A DNA stretch of 64,000 nt from Niastella koreensis GR20-10 (GTDB taxonomy: Bacteria > Bacteroidota > Bacteroidia > Chitinophagales > Chitinophagaceae): the NCBI RefSeq assembly GCF_000246855.1, contig NC_016609.1:7700744-7764743 (forward strand), given 5' to 3'. Shown in pieces: positions 36,128 through 50,546 of the stretch. The notes beneath the pieces are model-generated. The model saw nothing but the letters and a program-made list of their open reading frames with translations, searched no databases and was not told the DNA's origin. Each line of letters starts with the position of its first letter. The first letter of the stretch is position 1. The translations under genes and the position numbers were made by a program.

Positions 36128-36133
36128 CAACAA

Positions 36134-36189: not shown

Positions 36190-37062
36190 CTACATCTTAA
36201 ACTTCTTCATATACGCCGCATCTGCTTCAGCGCTTTTCAGCGGTGTGCTGTTATCCCAAAGCTCCTGCTCAACTATATAATATTGCAGGCCTTTAGTTGA
36301 ACCTGCTTTCAGGATCTTTTTAAAATCTATACTGCCAGAACCCAGGTCAGCGGAGGCATCGTGCTCTTTTGGATCCGCCCCTTTCTTACGGTCTTTTACG
36401 TGACACAGTTTGAACCGGCCAGGGTATTTGTTCAGCCAGGCAATAGGATCAGCGCCGGCAGTAACTACCCAGTAAATATCCATTTCAAAATCAACGGTAT
36501 CTTTATTGGTGCCCTCCATCATAATATCCTGCGGCATCTTACCATCTATTTCGGTAAAGCTGTAGCCATGGTTGTGATAGGCAAAACGCAACCCGTTCTT
36601 TTTACAAATGTCGCCACAGGCATTGAACTTATCGGCGGCTCTTTTAAAGTCATCGATCGTTTTGGGACCACCCAAACTTGGACAGATCAGGTATTTCATC
36701 CCAATTTCACCTGCCTGCGCCGCTTTGGTTTCAAAATCTTTATTGATATCGCAATGGGTTGAAATGAATGCGAGACCCAGTTCATCCATGTACTTTTTGA
36801 ATTCCTTATTGGTCATACCCCAGAAAATCCCCTGCTTGCCTTCAAAACCCTCAATTTGTTTATAACCATATCCGGATAACAATTTCAATGTGCCCTTCAC
36901 ATCTTTTGACAGATCGTCGCGCACCGACCACAACTGCAAACCAAATTTACTGATAGAACCATTGGGTGCAAATGCATTGCCCATTGAGAAAGCCGATCTT
37001 GAAATAAGTATTCCTGCTCCGAGTGCTCCGGTTGCTTTGAGAAAATTTCTTCTATTGTACAT
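36190..37062 (-). CDS. Exported sugar phosphate isomerase/epimerase family protein
   Basis: 290 residues. Twin-arginine-like signal MYNRRNFLKATGALGAGILI. AP endonuclease 2-like TIM barrel: FGLQLWSVRDDLSKD, YKQIEGFEG, GLRFAYHNHGYSF, DTVDFEMDIYWVVTAGADP, FKLCHVKDRKKG, GSIDFKKIL, YYIVEQEL; the Glu, Asp, His and Glu metal ligands are in place. It closely resembles the protein at 49677-50546 at the other end of the block (EMDIYWV, HVKD, GSGxIDFKKI, VEQ). In 3-keto-glycoside pathways such proteins are candidate lyases or isomerases acting on 3-keto sugars. Separated from the upstream gene by a strong hairpin. Confidence 0.88.
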   Translation of the reverse strand: MYNRRNFLKATGALGAGILISRSAFSMGNAFAPNGSISKFGLQLWSVRDDLSKDVKGTLKLLSGYGYKQIEGFEGKQGIFWGMTNKEFKKYMDELGLAFISTHCDINKDFETKAAQAGEIGMKYLICPSLGGPKTIDDFKRAADKFNACGDICKKNGLRFAYHNHGYSFTEIDGKMPQDIMMEGTNKDTVDFEMDIYWVVTAGADPIAWLNKYPGRFKLCHVKDRKKGADPKEHDASADLGSGSIDFKKILKAGSTKGLQYYIVEQELWDNSTPLKSAEADAAYMKKFKM

Positions 37063-37088
37063 ATGGATGGTTGATATGATTAAAAATC

Positions 37089-37131
37089 AATGATGAATGT
37101 CGAAGTAGAAAATACTTCGACATTCATCATT
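37089..37131 (-). terminator. Perfect 19-bp hairpin terminator
   Basis: Arms 37089-37107 and 37113-37131 pair perfectly over 19 bp around a 5-base loop. On the minus strand the hairpin is followed by GATTTTTAATC. It ends transcripts of the hitch-hiker subunit gene or attenuates read-through into the isomerase gene. Confidence 0.8.
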
Positions 37132-37151
37132 TAATATTCAAGATTCAATAT

Positions 37152-37727
37152 TTACAGCGCCCAGGCTTTATCGCCTTTTTTGTAAGGAATGCAGGCATCA
37201 AAGCGGCCTGGAACCGGCACATATCTCAGGGCCTTGGTAGCGCCTGGCTCTGATGTAAAGTAACCCAACAGGGTCAGCTGTTTCATCAGAGTGAAATAGT
37301 GCGGATCATCTTCCTTCTTTTTATCTTTTGCGTAAGCCTTTTGTTCTTTATCCAGTTCGTTCAGCAGCTCTTTGCGTTGTTCGGGTGTTATTTTCATAAA
37401 CCCGTTACCGCTGAATTTTTTCTTGCTGGCTTCGTTCAATTTATTCATTCCTTCCAGGAACACTTTCTGTTCATTTGGTTTATAGCAATCCTTTACCATA
37501 ACGCCCATGAACTGGCCTACTTTGGCATCTTTGGCACCAGGAGTATCGGTAGCAGGAATAATTGTTTCTGCTATTTCATCCAGGTAAGCCAAATCGTCGG
37601 CAGTAAAGTCAACAGACTGGCCGAGCTTTTTATCAGTGCTGGTGCAACCGCTCAGAAAAAATTCACCTCCTATCACGGTTCCTCCTAATAACAAGGCAAC
37701 ACGGGATAAAGCGTCTCTTCTGTTCAT
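37152..37727 (-). CDS. Gluconate 2-dehydrogenase subunit 3 family protein (Tat hitch-hiker subunit)
   Basis: 191 residues. The signal combines a twin-arginine start (MNRRDALSRVALLLGG) with a lipobox (FFLSGC, Cys28). The mature domain matches the small subunit of GMC dehydrogenases: FTADDLAYLDEIAETIIPATDTPGAKDAKVGQFMGVMVKDCY, then PHYFTLMKQLTLLGYFTSEPGATKALRYVPVPGRFDACIPYKKGDKAW. In glucoside 3-dehydrogenases and gluconate dehydrogenases this subunit carries the signal-less flavoprotein through the Tat system. It starts 37 bp after the stop of the GMC gene at 37765. It is the only such subunit in the window although two GMC genes are present. Confidence 0.9.
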   Translation of the reverse strand: MNRRDALSRVALLLGGTVIGGEFFLSGCTSTDKKLGQSVDFTADDLAYLDEIAETIIPATDTPGAKDAKVGQFMGVMVKDCYKPNEQKVFLEGMNKLNEASKKKFSGNGFMKITPEQRKELLNELDKEQKAYAKDKKKEDDPHYFTLMKQLTLLGYFTSEPGATKALRYVPVPGRFDACIPYKKGDKAWAL

Positions 37728-37764
37728 AATTATTAATTTGAAGTATGAATCAATTCATGATTTT

Positions 37765-39480
37765 TTACAGATTGCCCTTCTTCAGTTCACTCACTGCATG
37801 ATCTGCGGCGCGGGCTGTAAGCGCCATGTACGTTAACGATGGATTTTGACAGGCAGATGAAGCCATACAAGCGCCATCGGTGATATACACATTTTTTACA
37901 TCGTGCATTTGGTTATTGCCATTCAGTACCGAAGTTTTAGGATCTCTTCCCATCCGGGCAGTTCCCATTTCATGGATACAAAAACCAGGGGCAAAATCAT
38001 AGTCGAAAGTCTTCACATTTTTCAACCCTGCTTTTTCCAGCATTTCAACCGCACATTCTCCCATGTCTTTTCGCATGGTCTTTTCGTTTTCCCTGAATTC
38101 ACAATCGATATCGAGCGTTGGCAATCCCCATTTATCTTTCTTCTCTTTATTCAGCGTTACTTTGTTCTCATAGTAAGGCAGGTGCTCGCCCCAGGCGCCC
38201 AACTGCATCGTCCAGTTGCCGGGTTCAGTGAGTTTTTCCTTCAGTTCAATACCTATGCCTTCTGCACTATCAACGCGGCTGCGACTGGCGCCACCCTGGT
38301 AACCAAAACCACGTACATAATCGGTACGTTTTGTTTTGTCGTTGATATTTCTGAACCGGGGTACATAGATCCCATTCGGTCTTCTGCCATAAAAATACTG
38401 ATCTTCAAATCCATCATACTCGCCACGGGCCCCAATACCATAATGGTGGTCCATCAGGTTATGGCCAACCTGCGCACTGCTGTTACCAAATCCGTTGGGG
38501 AATGCATCCGAAACGGAGTTTAACAGAATGTGTGCTGTACCCAGGGTGGAGGCATTCAGGAAAACCACTTTCGCATAGTACTCTTCGGTTTTCATGGTCT
38601 CCGAATCCAGGATGCGAACGCCGGTAGCGCGCTTTTTATCTTTATCGTACAACACATCCAGCACTATCGAAAACGGGCGCAGGGTTAAATTACCTGTTGC
38701 CGTTGCCGCCGGCAATGTGGCCGAATTACTGCTGAAATAGCCGCCGAACGGACAACCCTGGTGGCATTTGTTACGGTACTGGCAGGGACCACGGCTACCA
38801 ATTTGTTTGGTATGGTTGGCTGAACGGCCTATGATCATGGCGCGGTCGCTAAAGCTCTCTTTAATGCGGGCAGCCACGTGTTTCTCCAGGCAGTTCATTT
38901 CCATGGCTGGCAAAAACTCCCCATCGGGCAGTTGTGGCAGGCCATCGCGGTTTCCATTTATACCGGCAAACTTCTCCACATAGCTGTACCAGCTGGCCAG
39001 GTCATTGTAGCGAATGGGCCAGTCAACGCCATGGCCATCCCGGGCATTGGCGCCAAAATCAAGGTCGCTCCAGCGGTAGCTTTGGCGGCCCCACATGAGT
39101 GAGCGGCCCCCTACATGGTTACCACGTACCCAATCGAAAGGTTTTACCTGGGTGTATGGATTCTCCAGATCGTTTACAAAGAACTTCTTCGATACCTCAT
39201 CAAAAGCATAACATTTGCTTTGGATGGGACTGCTTTTTTTATCTTCTGCCGTTAACTTATTGCGGTGGGTTAAATCCCAGATGTCCTTTTCTGTTCCGGC
39301 GTAATCTTTTATGTGTTCAACATTTCTGCCGCGTTCCAGTACCAGCGTCTTCAATCCTTTTTCGCATAATTCTTTGGCGGCCCAGCCTCCACTTATTCCC
39401 GATCCTACTACTATAGCATCATAGGTGTTTTGTGCGGTTGCTTTTGTGTTCAGGTGTACGTTTAGAGAATCTCCAGGCAT
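37765..39480 (-). CDS. GMC oxidoreductase, probable glucoside 3-dehydrogenase catalytic subunit (copy 1)
   Basis: 571 residues with no signal peptide. FAD-binding GxGxxG in YDAIVVGSGISGGWAAKEL; GGRSLMWGRQSYRWSDLDFGAN; a Cys triplet Cys233, Cys239, Cys243 (CQYRNKCHQGC); catalytic His503 in IHEMGTARMG and Asn546 in CQNPSLTYMALTARAADH. In related FAD-dependent sugar dehydrogenases a Cys cluster near this point binds a 3Fe-4S centre that passes electrons to a cytochrome; here that is inference. It should oxidise the C3 hydroxyl of glycosides in the periplasm after export with the hitch-hiker subunit. It has a private promoter region with a 22-bp direct repeat. Confidence 0.92.
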   Translation of the reverse strand: MPGDSLNVHLNTKATAQNTYDAIVVGSGISGGWAAKELCEKGLKTLVLERGRNVEHIKDYAGTEKDIWDLTHRNKLTAEDKKSSPIQSKCYAFDEVSKKFFVNDLENPYTQVKPFDWVRGNHVGGRSLMWGRQSYRWSDLDFGANARDGHGVDWPIRYNDLASWYSYVEKFAGINGNRDGLPQLPDGEFLPAMEMNCLEKHVAARIKESFSDRAMIIGRSANHTKQIGSRGPCQYRNKCHQGCPFGGYFSSNSATLPAATATGNLTLRPFSIVLDVLYDKDKKRATGVRILDSETMKTEEYYAKVVFLNASTLGTAHILLNSVSDAFPNGFGNSSAQVGHNLMDHHYGIGARGEYDGFEDQYFYGRRPNGIYVPRFRNINDKTKRTDYVRGFGYQGGASRSRVDSAEGIGIELKEKLTEPGNWTMQLGAWGEHLPYYENKVTLNKEKKDKWGLPTLDIDCEFRENEKTMRKDMGECAVEMLEKAGLKNVKTFDYDFAPGFCIHEMGTARMGRDPKTSVLNGNNQMHDVKNVYITDGACMASSACQNPSLTYMALTARAADHAVSELKKGNL

Positions 39481-39506
39481 GATTACGATTTGAAAATTTT
39501 AAAATG

Positions 39507-39521
39507 TGAAAATGATTTTCA
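39507..39521. promoter_or_regulatory. Palindrome in the leader of GMC copy 1
   Basis: TGAAAAT-G-ATTTTCA, 7-bp perfect arms, between the candidate -7 box and the start codon of the dehydrogenase gene; a possible operator or mRNA hairpin. Confidence 0.35.
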
Positions 39522-39535
39522 TTTCATTTTCTGCA

Positions 39536-39543
39536 CTAATATA
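39536..39543 (-). promoter_or_regulatory. Candidate -7 box (TATATTAG) for GMC copy 1
   Basis: On the minus strand TATATTAG matches TAnnTTTG with one change. The -33 position is poor and overlaps the direct repeats at 39551-39594, which fits activator-dependent expression. Confidence 0.4.
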
Positions 39544-39550
39544 AGATGGC

Positions 39551-39594
39551 TTTCATCAATTAAAGGTGGCAATTTCATCAAATAAAGGTGGTAA
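39551..39594. repeat. Two tandem 22-bp direct repeats upstream of GMC copy 1
   Basis: TTTCATCAATTAAAGGTGGCAA followed directly by a second copy with two differences (39573-39594). The 22-bp period equals two helical turns and the repeats cover the -33 region of the candidate promoter, so they look like a regulator binding site. Confidence 0.6.
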
Positions 39595-39678
39595 AAGCAT
39601 AAATTAATTTAAATTAAATGTCTTTTTACCATTTTACCTTCCACCAGTTTCACATTTTGAAATTTTCAAACTTATACC

Positions 39679-41358
39679 TTAAATATTTCCTTTTTTCAAT
39701 TCGCTTACAGCATGGTCAACGGCGCGGGCTGTTAATGCCATGTAGGTAAGTGAGGGGTTAACGCAGGCAGCAGATGTCATACAGGCGCCGTCGGTTACAT
39801 ATACATTCTGTGCGTCCCAAACCTGGTTGTGCGCATTCAGCACAGAAGTTTTGGGGTCTTTACCCATGCGGGCCGTACCCATTTCATGTATACCCATGCC
39901 CATGAAATAATCGCTTTCAGATGGTTTAACATCTTTTAACCCGGCGGCTGTCAGCATTTCCATGGCGTCGTTCTTCATATCAACGCGCATCTTCTTCTCA
40001 TTATCCCTTATTTCACAATCTATGGCCAGTACCGGTAAGCCCCATTTATCTTTTTTTGTTTTATCGAGGGAGATCGTGTTCTCGTGGTAGGGTAGTATTT
40101 CGCCAAAGGCGGTCATTCCAAGCGACCACGGACCTGGTTCTGATAATGCGCTCTTCAGTTCGGCGCCAATGCCCAGTTCAGCAATCTGGCGGTTCCAACC
40201 CTGGCGGCTGGCGCCACCCTGGTAACCAAAACTGCGAACATAATCTCTTTTGTCGCTGCCTGTATTGCGGAAACGCGGAATGTAAAAACCTGTGGGACGG
40301 CGGCCGAAGTAATATTTGTCGTCGAAGCCTTCGACAATACCTTCTGCACCCGTGCGGAAGTGATGGTCCATTACATTATGGCCCAATTCGCCACTGCTGC
40401 TGCCCAAACCCCCAGGCCAGATGTCGGTAGCAGAGTTGAACAACACCCAGGTGCTGTTAAAGGCAGAGGCGCACAGGAATACCACTTTCGATTTATACTC
40501 GTAGGTTTTATTATCCTGCGTATCCAGCACTTCTACGCCAGTGGCTTTTTTCTTGTCTTTATCGTACAACACTTTTGTCACCAGGGAAAAAGGACGCAGC
40601 GTTAAATTGCCGGTGGCTACTGCTGCCGGCAGCGTAGATGATTGCGTGCTGAAATACCCGCCAAACGGACAACCCAGCCAGCATTTGTTGCGGTACTGGC
40701 AATTGGTTCTGCCCGGTAAAGGTTGGGTGATATTGGCCACCCGGCCTATAAATAAATGACGTTCTCCTTTGTAATGTTCTTTCAGGCGGGCGGCTACATC
40801 TTTCTCCACGCAGTTCAACTCCATTCCGGGTTGAAACTGTCCGTCGGGTAAATGCGCCAGTCCTTCCCTGGAACCACTGATCCCGGCAAATTTCTCAACA
40901 TGATCGTACCAGGATGCGATGTCTTTATAACGGATCGGCCAGTCAACGCCATGGCCGTCTTTTGCATTGGCGCCAAAATCCAGATCGCTCCAACGATAGC
41001 TTTGGCGGCCCCACATCAGCGAACGGCCACCCACATGATAGCCCCGGAACCAGTCGAAACGTTTTGTTTCGGTGTACGGACAATCCTTTTCGTTCGTCCA
41101 GTAGTTCAGGTTCATTTCATTCAGTGGGTAATCTCTGTCCAGTACAGGATATTCTTTAGTCATCTCTGTGGTTTTACCACCACGATGCGGGAATTCCCAG
41201 GGAGCTTTGTTGGCGCTTTTATAATCTTTAATGTGCTCAATATTTTCGCCACGTTCCAGCAACAAAACTTTCAATCCTTTTTCGGTTAATTCTTTTGCTG
41301 CCCATCCGCCTGCAATTCCTGACCCTACGACAATAGCATCATAAACATTATCTGGCAT
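39679..41358 (-). CDS. GMC oxidoreductase, probable glucoside 3-dehydrogenase catalytic subunit (copy 2)
   Basis: 559 residues, no signal peptide, clearly paralogous to copy 1: YDAIVVGSGIAGGWAAKEL, GGRSLMWGRQSYRWSDLDFGAN, Cys220/Cys226/Cys230 (CQYRNKCWLGC), His491 in IHEMGTARMG, Asn534 in CVNPSLTYMALTARAVDH. All catalytic features are intact, so it is an active relative and not a decayed duplicate. It has no small subunit of its own and probably uses the hitch-hiker encoded at 37152. The next gene upstream is 55 bp away. Confidence 0.92.
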   Translation of the reverse strand: MPDNVYDAIVVGSGIAGGWAAKELTEKGLKVLLLERGENIEHIKDYKSANKAPWEFPHRGGKTTEMTKEYPVLDRDYPLNEMNLNYWTNEKDCPYTETKRFDWFRGYHVGGRSLMWGRQSYRWSDLDFGANAKDGHGVDWPIRYKDIASWYDHVEKFAGISGSREGLAHLPDGQFQPGMELNCVEKDVAARLKEHYKGERHLFIGRVANITQPLPGRTNCQYRNKCWLGCPFGGYFSTQSSTLPAAVATGNLTLRPFSLVTKVLYDKDKKKATGVEVLDTQDNKTYEYKSKVVFLCASAFNSTWVLFNSATDIWPGGLGSSSGELGHNVMDHHFRTGAEGIVEGFDDKYYFGRRPTGFYIPRFRNTGSDKRDYVRSFGYQGGASRQGWNRQIAELGIGAELKSALSEPGPWSLGMTAFGEILPYHENTISLDKTKKDKWGLPVLAIDCEIRDNEKKMRVDMKNDAMEMLTAAGLKDVKPSESDYFMGMGIHEMGTARMGKDPKTSVLNAHNQVWDAQNVYVTDGACMTSAACVNPSLTYMALTARAVDHAVSELKKGNI

Positions 41359-41413
41359 GGTTCAATCGTTTTTAATTATAAAGAAGACGTTAGAAATGGG
41401 AAATCGGTTTTAT

Positions 41414-42304
41414 TTATACATCACAAATTTTAATTCCTTTTTCCAGTGACACCAATTTTTCTTCATTGGTTTTTGGTGTTGGAATAAATTCCTGCGCTAC
41501 ATAGCCTTTAAAACCAAGGTCAACGATGGCCTTCATGATAGCAGGATAATATAATTCCTGTGTTTCATCAATTTCATTCCTTCCGGGAACACCACCGGTA
41601 TGATAATGGGAAATGTACTGGTGATTGTCTTTGATCGTTCTTATTACATCCCCTTCGTCTATCTGCATGTGATAGATGTCGTATAACAATTTGAAATTTT
41701 CTGACCCTGTGCGTTTGCACAATTCCACGCCCCAGGCGGTTCTGTCGCACTGGTAATCTTTGTGGTTTACCTTGCTGTTCAGCAGCTCCATTACAATCTC
41801 CACTTTATTTTTCTCAGCCAGGCCCATGATCTGTTTCAATCCTTCAGCACAATTGTTCCAGCCTGTTTCATCGTCTATACCGCGCCGACTGCCGCTAAAA
41901 CAAATCAGTTGTTTGTAACCGGCTTTGGCAACGAGGGGGATCATTTCAGTATAATTCTTTATCAGTTGCGGATGGAATTTTTTATCGTTCCAGCCATCTA
42001 CCAGGTTCAGTTCAGCGCCATTACACATAGAAGAAAAGATGCCGTACTTTTGCAGCGTGGGCCATTCTTTAGGACCAACAAGGTCAATTGCGCTAAAGCC
42101 TATTTTTTTAACTGCAACACACAGATCTTCCAGGGAAATGCTCCCGTAGCACCAACGGCAAACAGAGTGGTTGATATTTCCTTTCAAGGCGGTTGATTTA
42201 ATTTCCTCAGTTGTGGTAAAAGACGAAAGCATGTTGGCCGTTCCCAGCGCAGCAGTGCCGGCTACCAGGTTCTTGATGGCAACTCTTCTCGATTGATTGG
42301 CCAT
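41414..42304 (-). CDS. Hydroxypyruvate isomerase-like TIM-barrel protein, exported
   Basis: 296 residues. N-terminal export signal with adjacent arginines (MANQSRRVAIKNLVAGTAALGTANML). Barrel motifs of the Hyi group: HSVCRWCYGSISLEDLCVAVKKIGFSAIDLVGPKEW, EIVMELLNSKVNH, FKLLYDIYHMQIDEGD, ISHYHTGGVPGRNEID, FKGYVAQEFIPT, with the Glu/Asp/His/Glu metal site. Substrate is unknown; in this context a 3-keto sugar or its glucal-type elimination product is likely. It lies between the MFS permease and GMC copy 2, probably in one operon. Confidence 0.85.
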   Translation of the reverse strand: MANQSRRVAIKNLVAGTAALGTANMLSSFTTTEEIKSTALKGNINHSVCRWCYGSISLEDLCVAVKKIGFSAIDLVGPKEWPTLQKYGIFSSMCNGAELNLVDGWNDKKFHPQLIKNYTEMIPLVAKAGYKQLICFSGSRRGIDDETGWNNCAEGLKQIMGLAEKNKVEIVMELLNSKVNHKDYQCDRTAWGVELCKRTGSENFKLLYDIYHMQIDEGDVIRTIKDNHQYISHYHTGGVPGRNEIDETQELYYPAIMKAIVDLGFKGYVAQEFIPTPKTNEEKLVSLEKGIKICDV

Positions 42305-42409
42305 TTTTTTAATAATTGTTAAGATTGAAATTTACAAATTGTTCCCACAAAAACGATTAAATGTAAAACCGTTAGCGTTAAAATATTACAAAAGGTTAAG
42401 ATAGTACTA

Positions 42410-43717
42410 TTATGCGCTAACAGGTGTTAACAATTGCGTCTTCTTTCTTCCACGCATGTAAACAACCAATCCGGTAAATGCAAAAACAAGTATAATCGGT
42501 ATTATTAATGTGGTATCCAGAATTTGCGGGCCTGCTGCTTTTTTAGCTTCGGCCAGGGCATTCGCCATTTCTGATCCGCCGGGCGCATTGGTGTACGCTT
42601 TCAGATCGGCGCCTGCTGGTAATTTATCACCCAGCAGTTTATCGTAATGGCTGCCCATAAGTATCATATAAACAGAAACGGCAAACATGCCGGCTCCGCC
42701 CATAAAATTCAACCCAACCGCACCGGTTTTGGGAAGATTTTCTGACACAAAACCCAACATGGTGGGCCAGAAATAACATACACCCATTCCAAAAATAAGG
42801 GCGCCGGCAAATACCATGTTTCCGGTAGTATGTCCTAACAGATATATTCCCAATGCAGCTAATACGGAAGAGATCAGCAGTACACCCTGGGGAGATAATT
42901 TATGCACTACAGGTTCTGCCAGTCCGCGGCCAACCACCATTACACCGGTCTCCAACGTGAGGATCAACAGAGGATTATCGGTAACGTTTTTCAGGAGTAC
43001 ATCTATCCATTGACCGGTAAACAACTCTGTGATGGCGGTGCCAAACATGCAGACGATCATAAAAACGAACAGCGGAGTGGCTAATGCCTTGTACATTTCG
43101 CTTGTTGAAACACCTGCAGCCACCCGCTCGGTAACCGGGAATTTAAGGCGGGAAACCAGGTAACCATAAATTAATGTGGGTATCAGCATCACTGCCACCT
43201 GTACTTTCCAGGGATCCCAGCTGCCAATGGGTCCAATACCGGCTTTGTTATAAAGAAATACGATGAGTGTACCAATAAAAATGCCACCGGGGAACCAGAG
43301 ATGGAAGTGATTTAATTTGGTGGTTTTGTTCTCAGGATAGATAGCTGCCACCAGTGGATTACAGGCTGCTTCTACAGTTCCGTTAGCTATTCCTATTAAT
43401 AAGGTGGAGAGAAATAACGTCCAGTAACCGCTTGCAAAAACTGTTAGCAAAATACCCACAAGGTGAAACACACAGGCAAGCAGTAATAATTTTTTCATGC
43501 CTATAATATCAACGACCATACCGCCAATGATCACGGCTAAAGGAAAGCCCCAGAAGGCAGTGGCTGCAATGGTACCCAGTTCCGAGGCATTGAGGTGAAA
43601 GTCTACACCTAACTGGCCCAGGATCCCGGCACGGATGCCGAATGACAATGAGGTCACTAAAAGAGCTGAACAACTGGCCAAAAATAGCTGGCCGCGATGA
43701 ATCGTTGGTTGTTGCAT
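42410..43717 (-). CDS. MFS sugar transporter
   Basis: 435 residues with about 12 helices. The N-half motif LGTIAATAFWGFPLAVIIGGMVVDIIGMKKLLLL matches loop 2-3 of the major facilitator superfamily, and GIANGTVEAACNPLVAAIYPENKTTKLNHFHLWFPGG resembles FucP/NanX-like sugar permeases. It is the first gene leftward from the divergent promoter and should import the product released by the periplasmic enzymes. Confidence 0.87.
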   Translation of the reverse strand: MQQPTIHRGQLFLASCSALLVTSLSFGIRAGILGQLGVDFHLNASELGTIAATAFWGFPLAVIIGGMVVDIIGMKKLLLLACVFHLVGILLTVFASGYWTLFLSTLLIGIANGTVEAACNPLVAAIYPENKTTKLNHFHLWFPGGIFIGTLIVFLYNKAGIGPIGSWDPWKVQVAVMLIPTLIYGYLVSRLKFPVTERVAAGVSTSEMYKALATPLFVFMIVCMFGTAITELFTGQWIDVLLKNVTDNPLLILTLETGVMVVGRGLAEPVVHKLSPQGVLLISSVLAALGIYLLGHTTGNMVFAGALIFGMGVCYFWPTMLGFVSENLPKTGAVGLNFMGGAGMFAVSVYMILMGSHYDKLLGDKLPAGADLKAYTNAPGGSEMANALAEAKKAAGPQILDTTLIIPIILVFAFTGLVVYMRGRKKTQLLTPVSA

Positions 43718-43818
43718 GGCAAGATTCGTTTAGGTTTTTTATATGGTGGGTAATTGATAATTTTTAAACTTTATACCGAACCACCGTAATTTTATCGAAT
43801 GCAATTGTAAATTCGTTA

Positions 43819-43831: not shown

Positions 43832-43892
43832 ATGTAAATGTAATTTTTTATTTTAAAACAAATCCTTTTTCACATTTTCTAATTTCTATTTC

Positions 43893-45059
43893 ATGAACAG
43901 AAAATTAAGAATGGGAATGGTAGGTGGAGGCAAAGATGCCTTTATCGGCGCTGTTCACCGCATTGCTGCTAATATGGATGGACTGATCGAGCTTGCCTGT
44001 GGCGCTCTTAGTGTTAATCCCGAAACAGCTATTGATTCTGGAAAAATGTTATTTCTGCCCGATGACCGCATATATACCAATTATGAAGATATGATTAAGG
44101 CGGAAAGCAAATTACCAGCGGACAAACGCATGGATTTTGTTACCATCGTAACACCCAACTTCGCACACTTTGCTCCGGCAATGATGGCGCTTGACCATGG
44201 CTTTCACGTGGTGATTGAAAAACCAATGACCTTCACGCTCGATGAAGCTAAACAATTGCAAAAGAAAGTGGCCGAAACAGGTTTGCTGTTGTGCCTCACT
44301 CATACCTATTCAGGTTACCCGATGGTAAAACAGGCGCGTGCCATGGTACAGGGCAATGCGTTGGGTAAGATCAGAAAAGTAATTGTTGAATATCCGCAAG
44401 GCTGGTTAAGCAAGCTCAGCGAACGCGAAGGCAATGCGCAGGCTGCCTGGAGAACCGATCCTAAGAAATCGGGTAAGGCCGGCGCCATGGGTGATATTGG
44501 TACGCATGCCGCCCACCTTACCGAATACATCACTGGTTTAAAGATCATGCAGCTGTGCGCCGATCTGAATATAATGGTAGAAGGCCGTCACCTCGATGAT
44601 GATGGCAACGTATTGCTGAAATTCGACAATGGCGCCGCCGGTGTTTTAATAGCTTCACAAATTGCAGCCGGTGAAGAGAATGCATTGAAAATTCGGATAT
44701 ACGGCGAGTTGGGTGGCGTTGAATGGGCACAGCAGGAACCCAATACACTGCTGGTTAAATGGCTCGACCAACCCATGCAGGTACTGCGTGCCGGTGGTAA
44801 TTATACAGGTGTGTTGTCCACATTTGCTACCCACAACTGCCGCACTCCTGGTGGACACCCCGAAGGCTACCTCGAAGCATTCGGTAATATCTACCGCAAC
44901 TTTGCATTGACGTTGTCTGCGCAAATAGACGGGGTTCAACCTACTAAAGAAATGCTGGACTTTCCACGGGTAGACGAAGGCGTTCGCGGCATGGCGTTTA
45001 TCGACAATGTAGTAAAGAGCAGCACCAGCAAGGAAAAGTGGACACCGTTTGAAGTGTAA
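43893..45059 (+). CDS. Gfo/Idh/MocA family oxidoreductase, cytoplasmic
   Basis: 388 residues, no signal. Rossmann start MGMVGGGKDAFIGAVHRIAA, then FVTIVTPNFAHFAPAM, the EKP catalytic motif in HVVIEKPMTFTLDEA, and GDIGTHAAHLTEYITG near 205. Such enzymes reduce or oxidise sugars with NAD(P). Here it probably reduces an imported 3-keto sugar to the parent sugar. It is the first gene of the plus-strand arm and 37 bp ahead of a TIM-barrel isomerase. Confidence 0.92.
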   Translation: MNRKLRMGMVGGGKDAFIGAVHRIAANMDGLIELACGALSVNPETAIDSGKMLFLPDDRIYTNYEDMIKAESKLPADKRMDFVTIVTPNFAHFAPAMMALDHGFHVVIEKPMTFTLDEAKQLQKKVAETGLLLCLTHTYSGYPMVKQARAMVQGNALGKIRKVIVEYPQGWLSKLSEREGNAQAAWRTDPKKSGKAGAMGDIGTHAAHLTEYITGLKIMQLCADLNIMVEGRHLDDDGNVLLKFDNGAAGVLIASQIAAGEENALKIRIYGELGGVEWAQQEPNTLLVKWLDQPMQVLRAGGNYTGVLSTFATHNCRTPGGHPEGYLEAFGNIYRNFALTLSAQIDGVQPTKEMLDFPRVDEGVRGMAFIDNVVKSSTSKEKWTPFEV

Positions 45060-45096
45060 TACCTAATTCAAAACATTCATCTCAAAGCGCCATTTA

Positions 45097-46152
45097 ATGA
45101 AAACGTTAAAAGGACCTGGATTATTCCTCGCCCAGTTTATGGGCGATCAGCCACCGTTCAATTCGCTTAAATCAATATGCCAGTGGGCTAAAAGCCTGGG
45201 GTTTGCAGGTGTGCAAATACCTACCTGGGATAGCCGCTGTATCGACCTTCAAAAAGCAGCCGAAAGTAAAACTTATGCCGATGAGCTGAAAGGCCTCGTA
45301 AACGAATGCGGACTGGAGATCACTGAACTCTCCACCCATTTGCAGGGGCAACTTATAGCCGTTCACCCGGCTTATGATACCCTGTTCGATGGTTTTGCCC
45401 CCGAACAATATCGCAACAATCCCAAGGCGCGTACCGAATGGGCCGTGCAACAACTGCGGTATGCCGCCCAGGCTTCGCAAAATCTGGGATTGAACGCACA
45501 CGCCACTTTCAGCGGTGCGCTGTTATGGCCTACGGTTTATCCCTGGCCACAACGCCCCGCCGGACTGGTTGAAACCGGTTTTAAAGAACTGGCCAATCGC
45601 TGGTTGCCCATCCTCAACAAATTTGATGAACATGGCGTAGACCTTTGTTATGAAATACATCCCGGTGAAGACCTGCACGATGGTATTTCGTATGAGATGT
45701 TCTTACAGCATACCAACAACCACCCACGCGCCTGTTTGCTATACGATCCATCGCACTTCGTATTGCAATGCCTCGATTACCTGGAATACATCGACAACTA
45801 TCATGAGCGCATCCGGATGTTCCATGTAAAAGATGCCGAGTTCAACCCAACCGGCAAACAAGGGGTTTATGGTGGTTATCAGAATTGGATTGACAGGGCC
45901 GGCCGTTTCCGCTCACTGGGCGATGGACAGGTTGATTTTAAATCTATTTTCAGCAAACTGGCTGCTTATGATTATCCGGGCTGGGCGGTGCTGGAATGGG
46001 AGTGTTGTATCAAACATCCTGAAGATGGCGCGAGGGAAGGAGCTCCATTTATTAAAGACCACATCATCCGTGTTACAGAAAAGGCTTTTGATGATTTTGC
46101 AGGAACGGGCAACAATGAAGAATTTAACAGAGCCGTATTAGGCTTAAAATAA
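45097..46152 (+). CDS. Sugar phosphate isomerase/epimerase, cytoplasmic
   Basis: 351 residues, no signal. TIM barrel with GFAGVQIPTWD, ITELSTHLQGQLIAVHPAYD, DLCYEIHPGEDLHDG, ACLLYDPSHFVLQCLDY, IRMFHVKDAEF, LGDGQVDFKSIFSKL, WAVLEWECC; Glu, Asp, His and Glu metal ligands are in place. It is longer than the exported barrels in the block (351 versus about 290). It pairs with the cytoplasmic oxidoreductase and likely acts after it or on the same imported sugar. Confidence 0.9.
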   Translation: MKTLKGPGLFLAQFMGDQPPFNSLKSICQWAKSLGFAGVQIPTWDSRCIDLQKAAESKTYADELKGLVNECGLEITELSTHLQGQLIAVHPAYDTLFDGFAPEQYRNNPKARTEWAVQQLRYAAQASQNLGLNAHATFSGALLWPTVYPWPQRPAGLVETGFKELANRWLPILNKFDEHGVDLCYEIHPGEDLHDGISYEMFLQHTNNHPRACLLYDPSHFVLQCLDYLEYIDNYHERIRMFHVKDAEFNPTGKQGVYGGYQNWIDRAGRFRSLGDGQVDFKSIFSKLAAYDYPGWAVLEWECCIKHPEDGAREGAPFIKDHIIRVTEKAFDDFAGTGNNEEFNRAVLGLK

Positions 46153-46204
46153 TGTAATTTGCTAAACTATTAACTTGCAATTCAGAATTTAAATTTTTGT
46201 TTCG

Positions 46205-46600
46205 ATGAAGAAATTACTCGTTTTTGCTGCTTTATGTACAGCCGTTGCCTGCGGTTCTGCAGACAATAAAAAGGGCACAGAAGAAAAACCCGCTGAAGGC
46301 GCCAGCACTTCTACTCCTGCGCCGGAAGCCAGCGCCAATGACAAAGGCCTGGATATGATCGTTTCGCTCGATTGTACTACCTGTCACAAGATCAATGAAA
46401 AAAATATCGGTCCTGCTTACACCGATGTAGCAAAAAAGTATGAAACCACCGATGCCAATATTGAAACCCTTGCTAACAAGGTAATCAAAGGCGGATCTGG
46501 TAACTGGGGGTCTGTTCCAATGACACCACATCCGGCATTGAGTGTAGACAGTGCCAAGGAAATGGTTCGCTACATACTGAACTTAAAAAATGCAAAATAA
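46205..46600 (+). CDS. Lipoprotein c-type cytochrome
   Basis: 131 residues. Lipoprotein signal ends CTAVAC (Cys16), Pro/Ala/Ser-rich linker, then a class I cytochrome c domain with CTTCH (Cys57, Cys60, His61), IGPAYTDVAKKY and the likely axial Met106 in GSVPMTPHPAL. In glucoside 3-dehydrogenases a small cytochrome c takes electrons from the flavoprotein, so this is the natural electron acceptor for the two GMC proteins. It is in the plus-strand arm, between the isomerase and the DUF1080 genes, and is followed by a terminator. Confidence 0.9.
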   Translation: MKKLLVFAALCTAVACGSADNKKGTEEKPAEGASTSTPAPEASANDKGLDMIVSLDCTTCHKINEKNIGPAYTDVAKKYETTDANIETLANKVIKGGSGNWGSVPMTPHPALSVDSAKEMVRYILNLKNAK

Positions 46601-46608
46601 ATTTCAGC

Positions 46609-46635
46609 AACCCCTGCTTCTCAGAAGCGGGGGTT
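46609..46635 (+). terminator. Hairpin terminator after the cytochrome gene
   Basis: AACCCC-t-GCTTC/GAAGC-g-GGGGTT stem around TCA, followed by CTTTTTAAGG. It would reduce transcription into the two DUF1080 genes unless they have their own promoter. Confidence 0.8.
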
Positions 46636-46689
46636 CTTTTTAAGGTATTGCCTGCCTGTTTACGTGTACCATTTATTCTGAAATCATTC

Positions 46690-47418
46690 ATGAAAAAGTT
46701 TATTATCGCCTTATTCCCTGTGGCCTTGCTGGCCTGCCATACAGCAAACAAAACAACCGATGACGCCAAAGCCACCAAAGCATCAAAAAAAAGTGATGGC
46801 TGGCAGTCGCTCTTCAATGGCACCTCAAAAGAAAACTGGCACGTTTATAATAGTAAATCAGATGGCGCTGCCTGGAAAGTGTTAGGTGATGGTGTATTGT
46901 ACCTCGATCCTGTAGCCAAGAAAAGTGGCGCAGGCGGTGGCGACTTAGTCACCAACGATGAATTTGAAAATTTTGATCTGAAGCTGGAATGGAAAATTGA
47001 CTCGGCCGGCAACAGCGGGATTATTTTTCTTACCCAGGAAGATCCCAAATATGGCCAATCGTATTTAACAGGTCCCGAAATGCAGATCATTGACAACAAT
47101 GGCCACCGCGATGCAAAGATCAACAAACACCGCGCAGGCGACCTGTACGATCTAATTGCCAGTACGCCTGAAAATGTACATCCTTTGGGTCAATGGAACC
47201 AGATAGAGATCATCATCAATAAAGGTCAGCTCGATCTGTTTCAAAATGGCGCCAAAGTGGTTTCTACAACCATGTGGAACGACAACTGGAAACAACTGAT
47301 CGCAAACAGTAAGTTCAAAAACTGGGCAGGTTTTGGTATGTTTCAGAAAGGCCGCATTGCCTTACAGGACCATGGCGATGGCGTAGCATTCAGAAATATC
47401 CAGATCAAACGCTTATAA
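46690..47418 (+). CDS. DUF1080 (3-keto-disaccharide hydrolase) lipoprotein, copy 1
   Basis: 242 residues from the ATG at 46690 (MKKFIIALFPVALLAC, lipid Cys16); the frame is open 42 bases further upstream. LamG-like jelly-roll domain: WQSLFNGTSKENWHVYN, GDLVTNDEFENFDLKLEWKID, GNSGIIFLTQE, GPEMQIIDNNGH, HRAGDLYDLI, WNQIEIIINKGQLDLFQNG, AFRNIQIKRL. The family is named for hydrolysis of 3-keto-disaccharides made by glucoside 3-dehydrogenase. It is expected on the periplasmic side, lipid-anchored, near the GMC enzymes. Confidence 0.92.
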   Translation: MKKFIIALFPVALLACHTANKTTDDAKATKASKKSDGWQSLFNGTSKENWHVYNSKSDGAAWKVLGDGVLYLDPVAKKSGAGGGDLVTNDEFENFDLKLEWKIDSAGNSGIIFLTQEDPKYGQSYLTGPEMQIIDNNGHRDAKINKHRAGDLYDLIASTPENVHPLGQWNQIEIIINKGQLDLFQNGAKVVSTTMWNDNWKQLIANSKFKNWAGFGMFQKGRIALQDHGDGVAFRNIQIKRL

Positions 47419-47446
47419 TTCGCATTTTCACTAAAATCATCTATAT

Positions 47447-48244
47447 ATGCGCACAACTTTTGCTTGCCTGTTTATTGCTGGCGCCATTGCAGGTTGCCAG
47501 GGTGGTTCCGGCACACAACAAGCGGGAACCGATACAACAAAAACAACAACAGCAGATACTATGGCCAAAGCAGCTCCTGTTGAAATGAACAACAGCCTCA
47601 CCAATGAAGAAAAAAGTGCCGGCTGGCAATTACTGTTCGATGGCAATTCGAAAAGTAATTTCCATGTTTTTAATAAGAAGTCTGACGGCGCAGCGTGGCA
47701 GATTGCTGATGGCGCTTTACACCTCGATACCGCCAATAAAAAAGATGGTAAGATCACAGGCGGCGGTGACCTGGTAACCAACGATGAATACGATAATTTC
47801 GATCTGAAACTGGAATGGAAGATCTCGGCAGGTGGTAACAGCGGGATCCTGTTTTATGTGCAGGAAGGGCCTAAATTCGGCGAAACCTATCATACCGGTC
47901 CCGAAATGCAGGTGCTGGATAACGCAGCGCATCCCGATGCCAAGATCATTAAACACCGCGCCGGCGATCTGTATGATCTCATCACCAGTACGCCCGAAAC
48001 GGTAAAGCCTGCCGGTGAATGGAACCAGGTGGAGATCATCTCCAATAAAGGCGCACTGGAGTTTCATTTGAACGGCACCAAAGTGGTTTCAACTACCCTG
48101 TGGGATGATGCCTGGAAGAAGATGGTTGCCGCCAGCAAATTCAAACAATGGCCTGGCTTCGGCACGTATAAAACCGGTCACATTGCCTTACAGGATCACG
48201 GCAATGCTGTTTGGTACCGGAATATCAGGATCAAAAAATTGTAA
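47447..48244 (+). CDS. DUF1080 (3-keto-disaccharide hydrolase) lipoprotein, copy 2
   Basis: 265 residues. Lipoprotein signal MRTTFACLFIAGAIAGC (Cys17), a Thr/Ala linker, then the same domain as copy 1 with nearly identical motifs: WQLLFDGNSKSNFHVFN, GDLVTNDEYDNFDLKLEWKIS, GNSGILFYVQEG, GPEMQVLDNAAHPDAK, HRAGDLYDLI, WNQVEIISNKGALEFHLNG, WYRNIRIKKL. It begins 28 bp after copy 1, so this is a tandem duplication with kept function; differences suggest distinct linkage preferences. It ends at a strong bidirectional terminator. Confidence 0.92.
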   Translation: MRTTFACLFIAGAIAGCQGGSGTQQAGTDTTKTTTADTMAKAAPVEMNNSLTNEEKSAGWQLLFDGNSKSNFHVFNKKSDGAAWQIADGALHLDTANKKDGKITGGGDLVTNDEYDNFDLKLEWKISAGGNSGILFYVQEGPKFGETYHTGPEMQVLDNAAHPDAKIIKHRAGDLYDLITSTPETVKPAGEWNQVEIISNKGALEFHLNGTKVVSTTLWDDAWKKMVAASKFKQWPGFGTYKTGHIALQDHGNAVWYRNIRIKKL

Positions 48245-48257
48245 GAAACTAACTATA

Positions 48258-48300
48258 AGCCCCCCACCAGCCCCCATTAGGGGGAAGCTGGTGGGGGGCT
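48258..48300. terminator. Nested GC-rich bidirectional terminator
   Basis: 14-bp perfect arms AGCCCCCCACCAGC/GCTGGTGGGGGGCT enclose an inner CCCC-ATTA-GGGG hairpin, with AT-rich flanks, between convergent genes ending at 48244 and 48307. Confidence 0.85.
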
Positions 48301-48306
48301 AAATTT

Positions 48307-49638
48307 TTATACTTTAGGCAGTTTATAACCATTGTTATACTCCTTCAACAGGTACTCGCTGTTCACTTTTTCGTCGGTAAATTTTCCCTTGTCTTTATCC
48401 CACACCAGCTTTTGTCCGCTTCTAAAGGCGATATTGCCCATTTGCGCTACTGTGGCTACATGCGCCCCGGCTTCAATGGAACAATGCAGGTCTTCGGTTT
48501 TCCGCGATTTTACGGCATCTACAAAGTTTACCCAATGCAGGTCAACCCCACTATCAATACTCCTGGCAAACGCCTTTGAAGCTTTCTCAGTGGCCTTTGG
48601 TTCTTCTATTACTTCCCAGCCGCCGCGGGAAAGCACCAGGGTGCCGTTGTTACCGATGTAAGCGATACCATGGTTCCTGCCATAGGACCCATTGTCTATT
48701 CCCATAGCAGAATCCCACACCAGGTTGAATTTATCAAACTCGTATAAGGTGGTCAATGTATCAGGTGTTTCTTCACTCAGTTCGGGATAGGCAAACTTGC
48801 CGCCCAGGGCAGAAATTGATTTGGGTACATCGGCTTTCATCCCCAACAGGGCATAATCCAGCAAATGCACGCCCCAGTCGGTCATTAAACCGCCGGCATA
48901 ATCCCAAAACCACCGGAAGTTAAAATGAAAGCGGCTGGCATTGAAAGACCGTTTGGGAGCGGGACCCAGCCAGGTGGCAAAGTCAACACCTGCAGGCGGG
49001 TTACTATCGGGCACAACAGCAGCCGGCCGCATCCAGCCCTGATAACACCAAACCTTTACAGTACGGATCATTCCCAGCTTTCCGCTTTGTACATAATCAA
49101 CCGCATCTTTAAAATGCTGCTGGCTGCGTTGCCATTGGCCGGCCTGCACCACCTTGTTATAGCGTTTTGCGGCAGCTACCATGGTACGGCACTCTATTAT
49201 CGAATTGCCAACGGGTTTTTCTACATACACATCTTTACCCGCTTCGCAGGCATTTATCATTTGTAAGGCATGCCAGTGGTCGGGCGTGCCTACAATTACC
49301 ACATCAATATCTTTTTGCTCGAGCAGCTTACGGTAATCGCCATAGGTTTTCACTTTTGACGTATCCACATTCATTTTTGCCAGCTCGGCCATTCTTTTAT
49401 CCAGTACATTTTTGTCAACATCGCACAACGCGACTATGTTAACACCTGGTACTTTCATCGCGGCCATTACATTGGCCCAGCCCATGCCATTGATGCCAAT
49501 GGCGCCAACCTGCAATTGATCGCTGGGCGCTATGCGGTTTTTGAAAATGGCAAATGCGTTATTATCTATGGCTGATAATACTGTTCCCCCGGCAAGCAAT
49601 GTACCCGCCTGTTGCAAGAACCTCCTGCGTTGCATCAT
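48307..49638 (-). CDS. Exported Gfo/Idh/MocA family oxidoreductase
   Basis: 443 residues. Twin-arginine signal MMQRRRFLQQAGTLLAGGTV. Rossmann start QVGAIGINGMGWANVMAAMKV, ALCDVD, VVIVGTPDHWHALQMINACEAGKDVYVEKPVGNS (EKP motif), FNFRWFWDYAGGLMTDWGVHLLDYAL. Tat export implies that the nucleotide cofactor is bound before export and kept, as in glucose-fructose oxidoreductase. In this block it could oxidise or reduce sugars at C3 in the periplasm. It begins 38 bp after the exported isomerase gene, so they form a two-gene operon. The start could also be the second Met. Confidence 0.92.
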   Translation of the reverse strand: MMQRRRFLQQAGTLLAGGTVLSAIDNNAFAIFKNRIAPSDQLQVGAIGINGMGWANVMAAMKVPGVNIVALCDVDKNVLDKRMAELAKMNVDTSKVKTYGDYRKLLEQKDIDVVIVGTPDHWHALQMINACEAGKDVYVEKPVGNSIIECRTMVAAAKRYNKVVQAGQWQRSQQHFKDAVDYVQSGKLGMIRTVKVWCYQGWMRPAAVVPDSNPPAGVDFATWLGPAPKRSFNASRFHFNFRWFWDYAGGLMTDWGVHLLDYALLGMKADVPKSISALGGKFAYPELSEETPDTLTTLYEFDKFNLVWDSAMGIDNGSYGRNHGIAYIGNNGTLVLSRGGWEVIEEPKATEKASKAFARSIDSGVDLHWVNFVDAVKSRKTEDLHCSIEAGAHVATVAQMGNIAFRSGQKLVWDKDKGKFTDEKVNSEYLLKEYNNGYKLPKV

Positions 49639-49676
49639 ATGACATTTGTATTAGGTGTGGTAATAGGATAACCAGT

Positions 49677-50546
49677 TTATTTTACGATATTCTTTTTCAG
49701 GTAAGCAATGCTTTTGGCAGTACTGTCAAGTGGCGCCCCGGGACACTGGTCCTGCTCAACAAAGAAGTATTTCATGCCGCTTTGTTTGGCGTGGGTAAAA
49801 ATCTTTTTAAAGTCAATTACGCCGCTGCCCACTTCGGTAAAGTTCTTTTGTGGGGTATTGTCCATATCCTTCACATGCCACATGGCAAAACGGCCGGGGT
49901 ATTTGGAGAAGAACGATAATGGGTCCTTACCGGCTTTGGAAACCCAGTAAATATCCATTTCAAAGAATACCAGTTTGGGATCGGTATCTTTCAATAATAC
50001 GTCGAAGCCATTTGTGCCCGCCAGCGGAGCAAATTCAAAATCGTGGTTATGATAAGCGAGTTTGATGCCTGCCTGCTTACAAATTTCTGCGGCTTTGTTG
50101 AGGACGGCAGCCAGTTTTTTAAAATTGTTGATATCGGTACGGAATTGTTCTTCCATCCAGGGAACAACTATGAACTCCTGGCCAACCGCTTTTGCATCTG
50201 CAACGGCAGGTTTCCATTTTTCTTCCCAACCGCTACCCAGGAACACACTGGCGGGAAAGGTGTGGCCGCTGGGGGTAGTTAAGCCCAGTGACTTTAATTC
50301 GGCACGCAGTTCGGCGGCATTCATCCCAAACCATTTTCCGTTGCCATAACCAAAGGTTTCAACGGTTTTATATCCTTGTGCTGCTACTTTGGCTAAAGTG
50401 CCTTTCGCATCTTTACCCATTTCATTGCGGAGTGTATATAATTGCAGGCCTATTTTCTGAGGCTCAAAAAACCAATCTTCTTTGCTGATAATTAAACTGG
50501 CGGTAAGCAGTGATGACTGCCTGAGGAAATCCCGGCGGGTTGGCAT
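49677..50546 (-). CDS. Exported sugar phosphate isomerase/epimerase family protein, paralogue
   Basis: 289 residues. Twin-arginine-like signal MPTRRDFLRQSSLLTASLII. TIM barrel with IGLQLYTLRNEMGKDAKGTLAKVAAQGYKTVETFGYG, IKLAYHNHDFEF, LVFFEMDIYWVSKAGKDP, FAMWHVKDMDN, VGSGVIDFKKIF, KYFFVEQDQ. It is the paralogue of the protein at 36190-37062, at the opposite end of the block. First gene of the two-gene operon with the exported Gfo/Idh/MocA protein; the pair could act sequentially on 3-keto sugars. Confidence 0.88.
   Translation of the reverse strand: MPTRRDFLRQSSLLTASLIISKEDWFFEPQKIGLQLYTLRNEMGKDAKGTLAKVAAQGYKTVETFGYGNGKWFGMNAAELRAELKSLGLTTPSGHTFPASVFLGSGWEEKWKPAVADAKAVGQEFIVVPWMEEQFRTDINNFKKLAAVLNKAAEICKQAGIKLAYHNHDFEFAPLAGTNGFDVLLKDTDPKLVFFEMDIYWVSKAGKDPLSFFSKYPGRFAMWHVKDMDNTPQKNFTEVGSGVIDFKKIFTHAKQSGMKYFFVEQDQCPGAPLDSTAKSIAYLKKNIVK

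Follow-up and report, generated by a model that had tools for sequence, protein, structure and literature searches.

The 64-kb stretch of DNA analyzed here (the window; positions 7700744-7764743 of the single 9,033,684-base contig NC_016609.1 of Niastella koreensis GR20-10) carries a block of 13 genes that very probably encodes a split-compartment 3-keto-glycoside pathway for small glycosides. The block fills window positions 36190-50546, with gaps of 28-198 bases between its genes. It consists of a minus-strand run (MFS42-TIM41-GMC39-GMC37-HH37-TIM36), a divergent plus-strand run (GFO43-HYD45-CYT46-DUF46-DUF47) and a minus-strand pair (TIM49-GFO48). Pfam analysis recovered every family that a first-pass annotation had named in this block (PF01261, PF13618, PF00732/PF05199, PF06439, major facilitator, Gfo/Idh/MocA and cytochrome c), and a candidate gene was found for each of oxidation, cleavage, import, hydration and reduction, in agreement with the earlier description of a complete degradation block. 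That description had termed the block periplasmic, which fits the predicted oxidation and cleavage steps; hydration and one reduction step are predicted to be cytoplasmic. A route by C3 oxidation is the best reading because a glucal hydratase homolog, proteins with 3-keto-O-glycoside eliminase (OGE)-type sites, PF06439 proteins and a flavin adenine dinucleotide (FAD) dehydrogenase with hitch-hiker subunit and cytochrome lie together, sorted by export signals.

Inferring the individual reactions, the electron route and the transported species from sequence, we propose the following scheme. In the periplasm, GMC39 or GMC37 would oxidize the glycosyl C3 after export as a complex with the hitch-hiker HH37, which supplies a twin-arginine translocation (Tat) signal. 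Electrons would pass to the lipoprotein cytochrome CYT46, probably via an iron-sulfur cluster. The acidified C2-H would then let TIM36 and TIM49 catalyze beta-elimination to the aglycone and 2-hydroxy-3-keto-glucal. The DUF1080 lipoproteins DUF46 and DUF47 may also cleave, by hydrolysis or by elimination, perhaps acting on another anomer or aglycone class. The glucal or keto-sugar would enter the cell through MFS42, HYD45 would add water to give 3-keto-glucose, and GFO43 would reduce 3-keto-glucose to glucose. TIM41 would act as an isomerase or epimerase on a periplasmic keto-sugar, and GFO48 may be a second, nicotinamide adenine dinucleotide (NAD)-type periplasmic C3 dehydrogenase.

Small glycosides are suggested as substrates. 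The first-pass annotation had noted the lack of a SusC/SusD pair, and this was upheld: at least 150 places in the genome encode a Plug domain (150 of 193 candidates were scored), none of them inside the window, and a Pfam scan of 30 window proteins detected no SusD family member. The longest open reading frame of the window (868 amino acids, 14614-17220, minus strand) encodes a PKD / Ig-like protein with a CHU_C type IX secretion signal domain. The window has neither a listed Plug place nor an open reading frame of sufficient length for a Sus-type polysaccharide utilization locus.

Predicted cytoplasmic hydration and reduction

Conservation was examined in 80 genome loci anchored on the hydratase (the best 80 of 594 confirmed), 49 of which were full-length. 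Export signals were called by simple pattern rules, not by a trained predictor. The sequences (rows) came from these 80 loci, together with 15 additional regions and three loci on plasmids, and those truncated at a contig end or of unusual length were excluded. By this approach, the signals were found to sort the steps between compartments much as first proposed, with flavoproteins that lack a signal paired to a Tat-type hitch-hiker, exported eliminases and DUF1080 proteins, and a hydratase and reductase predicted to stay in the cytoplasm.

HYD45 (45097-46152, plus strand; PF01261) is the strongest assignment of the set. By homology it is predicted to be a cytoplasmic 2-hydroxy-3-keto-glucal hydratase, as it matches the solved enzyme of that name (PDB 8ro4) closely and over its full length (residues 1-350, E 3.7e-176, 588.8 bits), and a signal was detected in none of 98 rows. 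Its neighbor GFO43 (43893-45059, plus strand), a Gfo/Idh/MocA oxidoreductase, adjoins the hydratase in 74 of the 80 loci, and 93 of its 94 rows lack a signal. GFO43 is a candidate cytoplasmic 3-keto-glucose reductase, with PDB 3v5n as best match (1.9e-105).

Proposed periplasmic cleavage

Two TIM barrels of family PF01261, TIM36 (36190-37062, minus strand) and TIM49 (49677-50546, minus strand), are candidate Tat-exported 3-keto-O-glycoside eliminases. Both match PDB entries 8TCD/8TCS/8TCT as well as AtOGE (8BVK), with values of 2.5e-37 (8tcd) and 1.2e-16 (8bvk) for TIM36 and 1.7e-39 (8tct) and 1.3e-25 (8bvk) for TIM49. The 8TCx and 8TDx entries presumably go back to work published in 2024 on the pathway in bacteria of the gut. 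In AtOGE of Agrobacterium tumefaciens, the metal ligands are reported as His132, Asp163, His189 and Glu233, with His134 catalytic (PMC10628242). Counterparts of these residues, assigned by motif and spacing rather than by alignment, were H163, H165, D195, H221 and E265 in TIM36 (each in 33/33 rows) and H166, H168, D198, H224 and E264 in TIM49 (each in 42/42 rows). The ligand spacing of 32/26/44 in TIM36 and 32/26/40 in TIM49 compares to 31/26/44 in AtOGE. Both proteins thus carry the His-Asp-His-Glu ligand set with a histidine two residues past the first ligand, and a Tat-like signal was present in 32/32 rows for TIM36 and 39 of 41 for TIM49.

DUF46 (46690-47418) and DUF47 (47447-48244), both on the plus strand, are candidate 3-keto-glycoside hydrolase/lyase lipoproteins that scored 159 and 165 bits, respectively, to PF06439 (DUF1080, 3-keto-disaccharide hydrolase; cut-off 26.8). 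The start of DUF46 is better placed at ATG 46690, which gives a lipoprotein-type signal, than at TTG 46648. DUF47 matches PDB entries 4hxc (2.5e-45), 8tda (1.3e-39) and 8rr2 (2.5e-39), most of which are named putative glycosyl hydrolase. An exported-type hydrophobic N-terminus was found in all 68 rows of DUF1080 proteins. Across the 80 loci, both cleavage families were present in 26, DUF1080 only in 24, OGE-like proteins only in 16 and neither in 14. The earlier proposal of a route through C3 oxidation remains the best reading; its further point, that elimination replaces classical hydrolysis, draws on the TIM barrels only, since the DUF1080 proteins may act in either way.

Proposed oxidation by a flavoprotein complex

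GMC39 (39679-41358) and GMC37 (37765-39480), both on the minus strand and of families PF00732/PF05199, are predicted catalytic subunits of FAD dehydrogenases, of glycoside 3-dehydrogenase type for GMC39. The active-site residues H491 and N534 of GMC39 are kept in 75 of 76 rows and C220/C226/C230 in 76/76, and GMC37 has the equivalent pair (H503, N546) along with a C-x5-C-x3-C motif. In GMC enzymes of the fructose/glucose dehydrogenase type, this motif carries an iron-sulfur cluster. GMC39 has no signal of its own, nor was one detected by the pattern rules in any of 104 GMC rows (29 + 75). The hitch-hiker HH37 (37152-37727, minus strand; Gluconate_2-dh3, PF13618, 141 bits) has a Tat-like signal in 69/69 rows and the twin arginine in 70/70; no solved relative of HH37 was found by sequence. 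CYT46 (46205-46600, plus strand; PF00034) is a mono-heme cytochrome c lipoprotein with CTTCH at residue 57 and PDB matches to cytochrome c (1.1e-18) and c-552 (3.1e-17), and may serve as electron acceptor of the GMC complex. Cytochromes of this type have a hydrophobic N-terminus in 79 of 86 rows, with no signal found in the other 7. The three components expected of an FAD glycoside 3-dehydrogenase complex are therefore present, i.e., a GMC protein without signal but with the His/Asn pair, a third subunit with a Tat signal and a nearby mono-heme cytochrome c. In Rhizobium radiobacter, a mono-heme cytochrome c is described as accepting electrons from FAD glucoside 3-dehydrogenase (PMC9915066).

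The nearest solved relatives of GMC39 are the catalytic subunits of fructose and glucose dehydrogenases (E ~1e-31). This raises the alternative that the complex oxidizes sugars or polyols in the periplasm at a position other than C3, as a dehydrogenase of the glucose, gluconate or fructose type would, and feeds the respiratory chain, while its neighbors process another oxidized sugar such as an inosose. Matches to IolE were found for three TIM barrels of the block, and matches to models of inositol dehydrogenase for both Gfo proteins. The IolE matches, however, reach only 51.7, 65.5 and 68.9 bits against a cut-off of 290, compared to the 588.8 bits of HYD45 to the glucal hydratase, and the DUF1080 and OGE-type proteins of the set fit 3-keto-glycosides. 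We consider this alternative very unlikely and retain oxidation at C3.

The two GMC genes of the block are not recent copies of each other, as they fall in separate clades of a quick tree of 108 GMC rows (built with a long-branch warning): GMC37 in a 10-row clade made up of the genus and one Niastella metagenome-assembled genome (support 99), and GMC39 in a 75-row clade. A search of the genome with GMC39 returned five places, namely GMC39, GMC37, a 72% copy at 5888348, a distant relative at 3256328 accompanied by a separate hitch-hiker gene, and a weak partial match. The copy at 5888348-5890033 of the contig (8346-10076 of the region examined around it) is 71-72% identical to GMC39, and no hitch-hiker gene was found within the 19 kb examined there. 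Thus, HH37, as the single close hitch-hiker, may have to serve as many as three catalytic subunits. In total, the genome encodes 10 PF06439 proteins and 2 PF13618 hitch-hikers.

TIM41, a predicted exported partner of the flavoprotein

TIM41 (41414-42304, minus strand; PF01261) was present in 50 of the 52 hydratase loci with GMC compared to 4 of the 28 without, and in 36 of the 52 the two genes were same-strand neighbors. A Tat-like signal was detected in 64 of 68 rows, and E173, D209, H235 and E272 were invariant in all 69. The first-pass annotation had grouped the TIM barrels of the block as isomerases or lyases; TIM36 and TIM49 are OGE-like as described above, whereas TIM41 is not eliminase-like, since Glu173 occupies the first ligand position and no His follows it in the His-x-His pattern. 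By profile comparison with three tested families, TIM41 was closest to hydroxypyruvate isomerase (1.9e-13), followed by 2-oxo-tetronate isomerase (3.5e-11) and YcjR (6.5e-08); scores to the first two were below the curated cut-offs (85.4 vs 353.45 bits and 82.3 vs 325 bits, respectively). When its AlphaFold model (predicted local distance difference test score 84.7) was compared to PDB folds, D-psicose 3-epimerase ranked first, the Hyi-like 3ngf second and YcjR (6wn6) fourteenth. TIM41 is taken as a predicted periplasmic keto-sugar isomerase or epimerase.

A more specific role is conceivable, in which the set also serves lactose and other galactosides in the manner of LacABC and TIM41 is a YcjR-type periplasmic 3-keto-sugar 4-epimerase that converts 3-keto-galactose to 3-keto-glucose. 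TIM41 is predicted to be exported and goes with GMC, its Glu-Asp-His-Glu set is epimerase-like, and it can be aligned to YcjR, which is annotated as a 3-dehydro-D-guloside 4-epimerase; 3-keto-gulose and 3-keto-galactose are one compound. The order of the profile scores and the top-ranked fold argue against a YcjR-type enzyme. The comparison with Caulobacter crescentus cuts both ways: LacABC, DUF1080 and neighboring epimerases are reported to matter for lactose, but LacABC is also reported to act with salicin, a glucoside (PMC9007349). Because the profile scores favor hydroxypyruvate isomerase, the YcjR-type role is kept as a minority reading, and an unlikely one.

GFO48 and a possible second route

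GFO48 (48307-49638, minus strand) is a Tat-exported Gfo/Idh/MocA protein that matches PDB 8tdf (1.4e-33), with likeness also to 8tdh. Its score to the NCBIfam family BT_2158_fam (NF058561) is 185 bits, below the cut-off of 750. GFO48 is thus a candidate periplasmic dehydrogenase that may work like BT_2158, without a claim to family membership. These similarities, together with the position of TIM49-GFO48 as its own minus-strand pair at the block end, are compatible with two routes in one locus: the GMC/OGE/HYD/GFO43 route and a BT2158-like route of GFO48, TIM49 and DUF1080 with NAD-type periplasmic oxidation, cleavage and reduction that needs no import. Among the best 80 loci, close GFO48 relatives were found only in L012 (72%), L059 (78%) and L068 (55%), with other matches at ~25-30%, which counts in favor of two routes. 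On the other hand, the bit score falls short of the BT_2158 family, and GFO48 is kept with the rest of the block in all eight congeneric regions examined, which suggests joint use. Two independent routes are therefore possible but doubtful, and we favor a single pathway to which GFO48 may contribute.

Proposed import of the cleaved sugar

With cleavage in the periplasm and hydration in the cytoplasm, as predicted, the pathway would require a keto-sugar to pass the inner membrane. MFS42 (42410-43717, minus strand; PF07690, 71 bits) is a major facilitator permease and the proposed importer of the cleaved keto-sugar. Genes resembling MFS42 or a nucleoside permease of the same superfamily were detected in 34 of the 49 full-length loci and in 23 of the 30 full-length loci with GMC, and ABC importer genes take the permease place on plasmids of Ketogulonicigenium, Paracoccus and Palleronia. 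We tentatively suggest, as a combined hypothesis that may well fail, that 2-hydroxy-3-keto-glucal or 3-keto-glucose itself is the transported species, carried by interchangeable permeases (MFS42, nucleoside-permease-like or ABC importer), and that exported TIM41 is the standing partner of the flavoprotein. If so, TIM41 could, e.g., turn 3-keto-galactose into 3-keto-glucose and provide one exit for galactosides and glucosides. Within this compact locus, in which each gene could be deleted, the enzyme TIM41 and the transport step stand out. No publication describing this locus or a glucal transporter was recognized among the papers listed, in a survey that covered subscription literature thinly and makes no claim of absence from print.

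Conservation and linkage

In the 80 hydratase loci, GFO43 was detected in 77, CYT in 68, TIM41 in 54, GMC in 52, DUF1080 in 50, the hitch-hiker in 46, TIM36/49 in 42, MFS42 in 35 and GFO48 in 27. By contrast, genes flanking the block, used as controls, were nearly absent (Band 7 in 1, DUF4440 in 2, TPM in 0 and the outer-membrane protein in 1). Among the 49 full-length loci, the counts were 47 for GFO43, 42 for CYT, 30 each for GMC, TIM41 and DUF1080 and 27 for the hitch-hiker, with 0 for each flanking control. The linkage is thus more than chance, as block genes recur while flanking controls do not.

All 13 genes were found in the same order in 8/8 congeneric regions examined, two of which had a divergent permease (53% and 48%). 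Nine same-genus genomes were available, and the ninth (61% complete) was left out of this comparison. The genus result alone does not discriminate, since the flanks are conserved there too. Seven regions came from other genera within the family; five of them had a GMC of this type and none had the complete set of 13 genes. The hydratase was detected in 20 of the 39 relatives' genomes searched, our own included: 10/10 in the genus, 9/14 in other genera of the family and 1/15 in other families of the order. Its closest named relative among the best 80 was in a Niastella metagenome-assembled genome (88%), and most of the nearest loci were from Chitinophagaceae or other Bacteroidota.

Nine full-length Chitinophaga loci had no GMC nearby. 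In two of these genomic regions (L032 13476-16892 and L058 13098-16505), a protein of 1135-1138 amino acids is encoded 3' of the hydratase-cytochrome-DUF1080 run; by eye, and not from a family search, it appears to combine ThuA-like, sorbosone/pyrroloquinoline quinone (PQQ)-type dehydrogenase-like and CxxCH heme-c domains. A swapped PQQ-type front end in Chitinophaga was considered and rejected, all nine genomes having 2-4 hitch-hiker genes. An unlinked GMC enzyme, a family not itself searched for in these genomes, is the simpler reading.

Plasmid relatives and possible exchange between phyla

GMC39 relatives with 60-80% identity were found in seven plasmid records from Bacteroidota, Proteobacteria and Gemmatimonadota-type hosts. 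Plasmids of X. sacchari, Paracoccus and Palleronia carry TIM41, GMC, a hitch-hiker, DUF1080, an OGE-like TIM barrel, Gfo, hydratase and an importer. Within the limits of the PLSDB gene tables, which are incomplete, a cytochrome is annotated only on the X. sacchari plasmid among these, and the stretch examined of the Ketogulonicigenium plasmid is without TIM41, DUF1080 and cytochrome. Identities to the window proteins were 69-72% for GMC, 64-74% for the hydratase, 54-55% for TIM41, 37-43% for the hitch-hiker, 28-44% for Gfo, 29-32% for OGE-like proteins, 24-26% for DUF1080 and 27% for the cytochrome. By these values, the GMC-hydratase core pair and TIM41 are closely shared and the rest by family only; the X. 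sacchari reductase (28%) may be a different one. Judged by eye, export signals on four proteobacterial plasmids sort the steps alike.

The GMC identity across phyla overlaps the range within Chitinophagaceae, and in the quick tree two proteobacterial GMC rows nest among those of Bacteroidota (support 90, not starred). This GMC identity and tree placement point to, but do not prove, horizontal exchange between phyla. On Sinorhizobium meliloti pSymB (L128 8001-10445), hydratase and Gfo genes have xylA, xylB and a gene for a GH1 beta-glucosidase in their vicinity, with no GMC listed in the 17 kb examined. From this context, the hydratase and Gfo steps may also serve other sugars.

Observations that weigh against the pathway

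Several observations weigh against the proposed pathway. No GMC was found in the DNA examined for 28 of the 80 hydratase loci, 19 of them full-length, and this suggests that the hydratase and reductase also serve other or unlinked front ends. A PF13618 hitch-hiker was present in 19 of 20 genomes checked. The exception, with 0, was the Mucilaginibacter genome of L075, a locus with hydratase, GFO43, TIM41, TIM49 and an MFS42-like gene; a C3 dehydrogenase there, if any, would be of another type. Neither an MFS42- nor a nucleoside-permease-like gene was found in 15 of the 49 full-length loci, 7 of these with GMC, and a crude hydropathy scan of those 7 found another polytopic open reading frame in one. 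The best solved relative of GFO43 is an oxidoreductase with no assigned function, and its best NCBIfam match, levoglucosan dehydrogenase, scores 98.7 bits against a cut-off of 650. Plasmid DUF1080, OGE-like and cytochrome genes are just 24-32% identical to those of the window. In other organisms, the ten Pedobacter DUF1080 genes all lacked a lactose phenotype (PMC9007349), and deletion of BT2157 or BT2158 is described as causing no growth defect on raffinose-family sugars (PMC11501099).

Relation to known systems

Comparison with known 3-keto-glycoside clusters, which had been recommended at first pass, revealed by description that two published sets resemble the window: LacABC plus DUF1080 and GlycDH-OGE-HYD-Gfo. 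The kind of system is already published, and the window combines both sets. The first, described for C. crescentus and Pedobacter (PMC9007349), shares a three-part dehydrogenase beside DUF1080 with periplasmic oxidation and cleavage; it has known members in Bacteroidota, and the Pedobacter strain has ten DUF1080 genes, as does the genome examined here. Compared by description, the window differs in its two GMC proteins with one hitch-hiker and in its OGE-type proteins, and one of its "sugar epimerases" can be named as a glucal hydratase from a solved homolog. Price et al. describe the fate of 3-ketogalactose as unknown and, for the genes beside lacB, give no exact function to two "sugar epimerases", a reductase or a transporter (PMC9007349). 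The conserved set offers candidates (a glucal hydratase, a 3-keto-glucose reductase and an OGE-type eliminase) for most of these.

The second set is the GlycDH/TAT-OGE-HYD-Gfo operon of A. tumefaciens, for which Bitter et al. 2023 report oxidation by GlycDH+TAT and elimination by OGE as shown, with preliminary evidence for HYD and Gfo (PMC10628242). It shares with the window the order of oxidation, elimination, hydration and reduction, a partner with a TAT signal, and the inclusion of hydratase and Gfo genes. The description there covers just two TIM-barrel genes, and the main text makes no mention of DUF1080 (PMC10628242). By description, the window additionally has two DUF1080 proteins, TIM41, a BT2158-like Gfo and a second GMC.

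BT2156-BT2160 of Bacteroides thetaiotaomicron is similar in that the window encodes relatives of its 3-keto-disaccharide hydrolase domain and of its BT2158-like dehydrogenase. The window differs in starting from a respiratory FAD/cytochrome system and in final steps that are predicted to be cytoplasmic. Deletion of BT2158 is reported to abolish growth on trehalose, leucrose or palatinose (PMC11300592). The levoglucosan pathway of Bacillus smithii (LgdA-LgdB1-LgdB2-LgdC) shares the order of chemistry and the glucal intermediate, but is described with Gfo-type oxidation dependent on reduced NAD (NADH), ABC importer genes for the intact sugar and other protein subfamilies (PMC7676230, PMC10066097). 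The kind of chemistry is known, and the locus is probably an unusually complete example of the pathway, ordinary in kind and useful as a test locus.

Other features of the locus

No Rfam matches were found between 30000 and 56000. Terminator-like sites in the region numbered 20 compared to 18.4 in shuffles, and a promoter scan gave 34 compared to 27.2, both near shuffle level. Two inverted repeats were observed beside TIM36. A terminator-like stem of 16 pairs at 36133-36167 (minus strand, by consensus scan only) lies 3' of the gene and is a possible transcription end, and a repeat of 19 pairs at 37089-37131, between HH37 and TIM36, is a possible processing or attenuation site.

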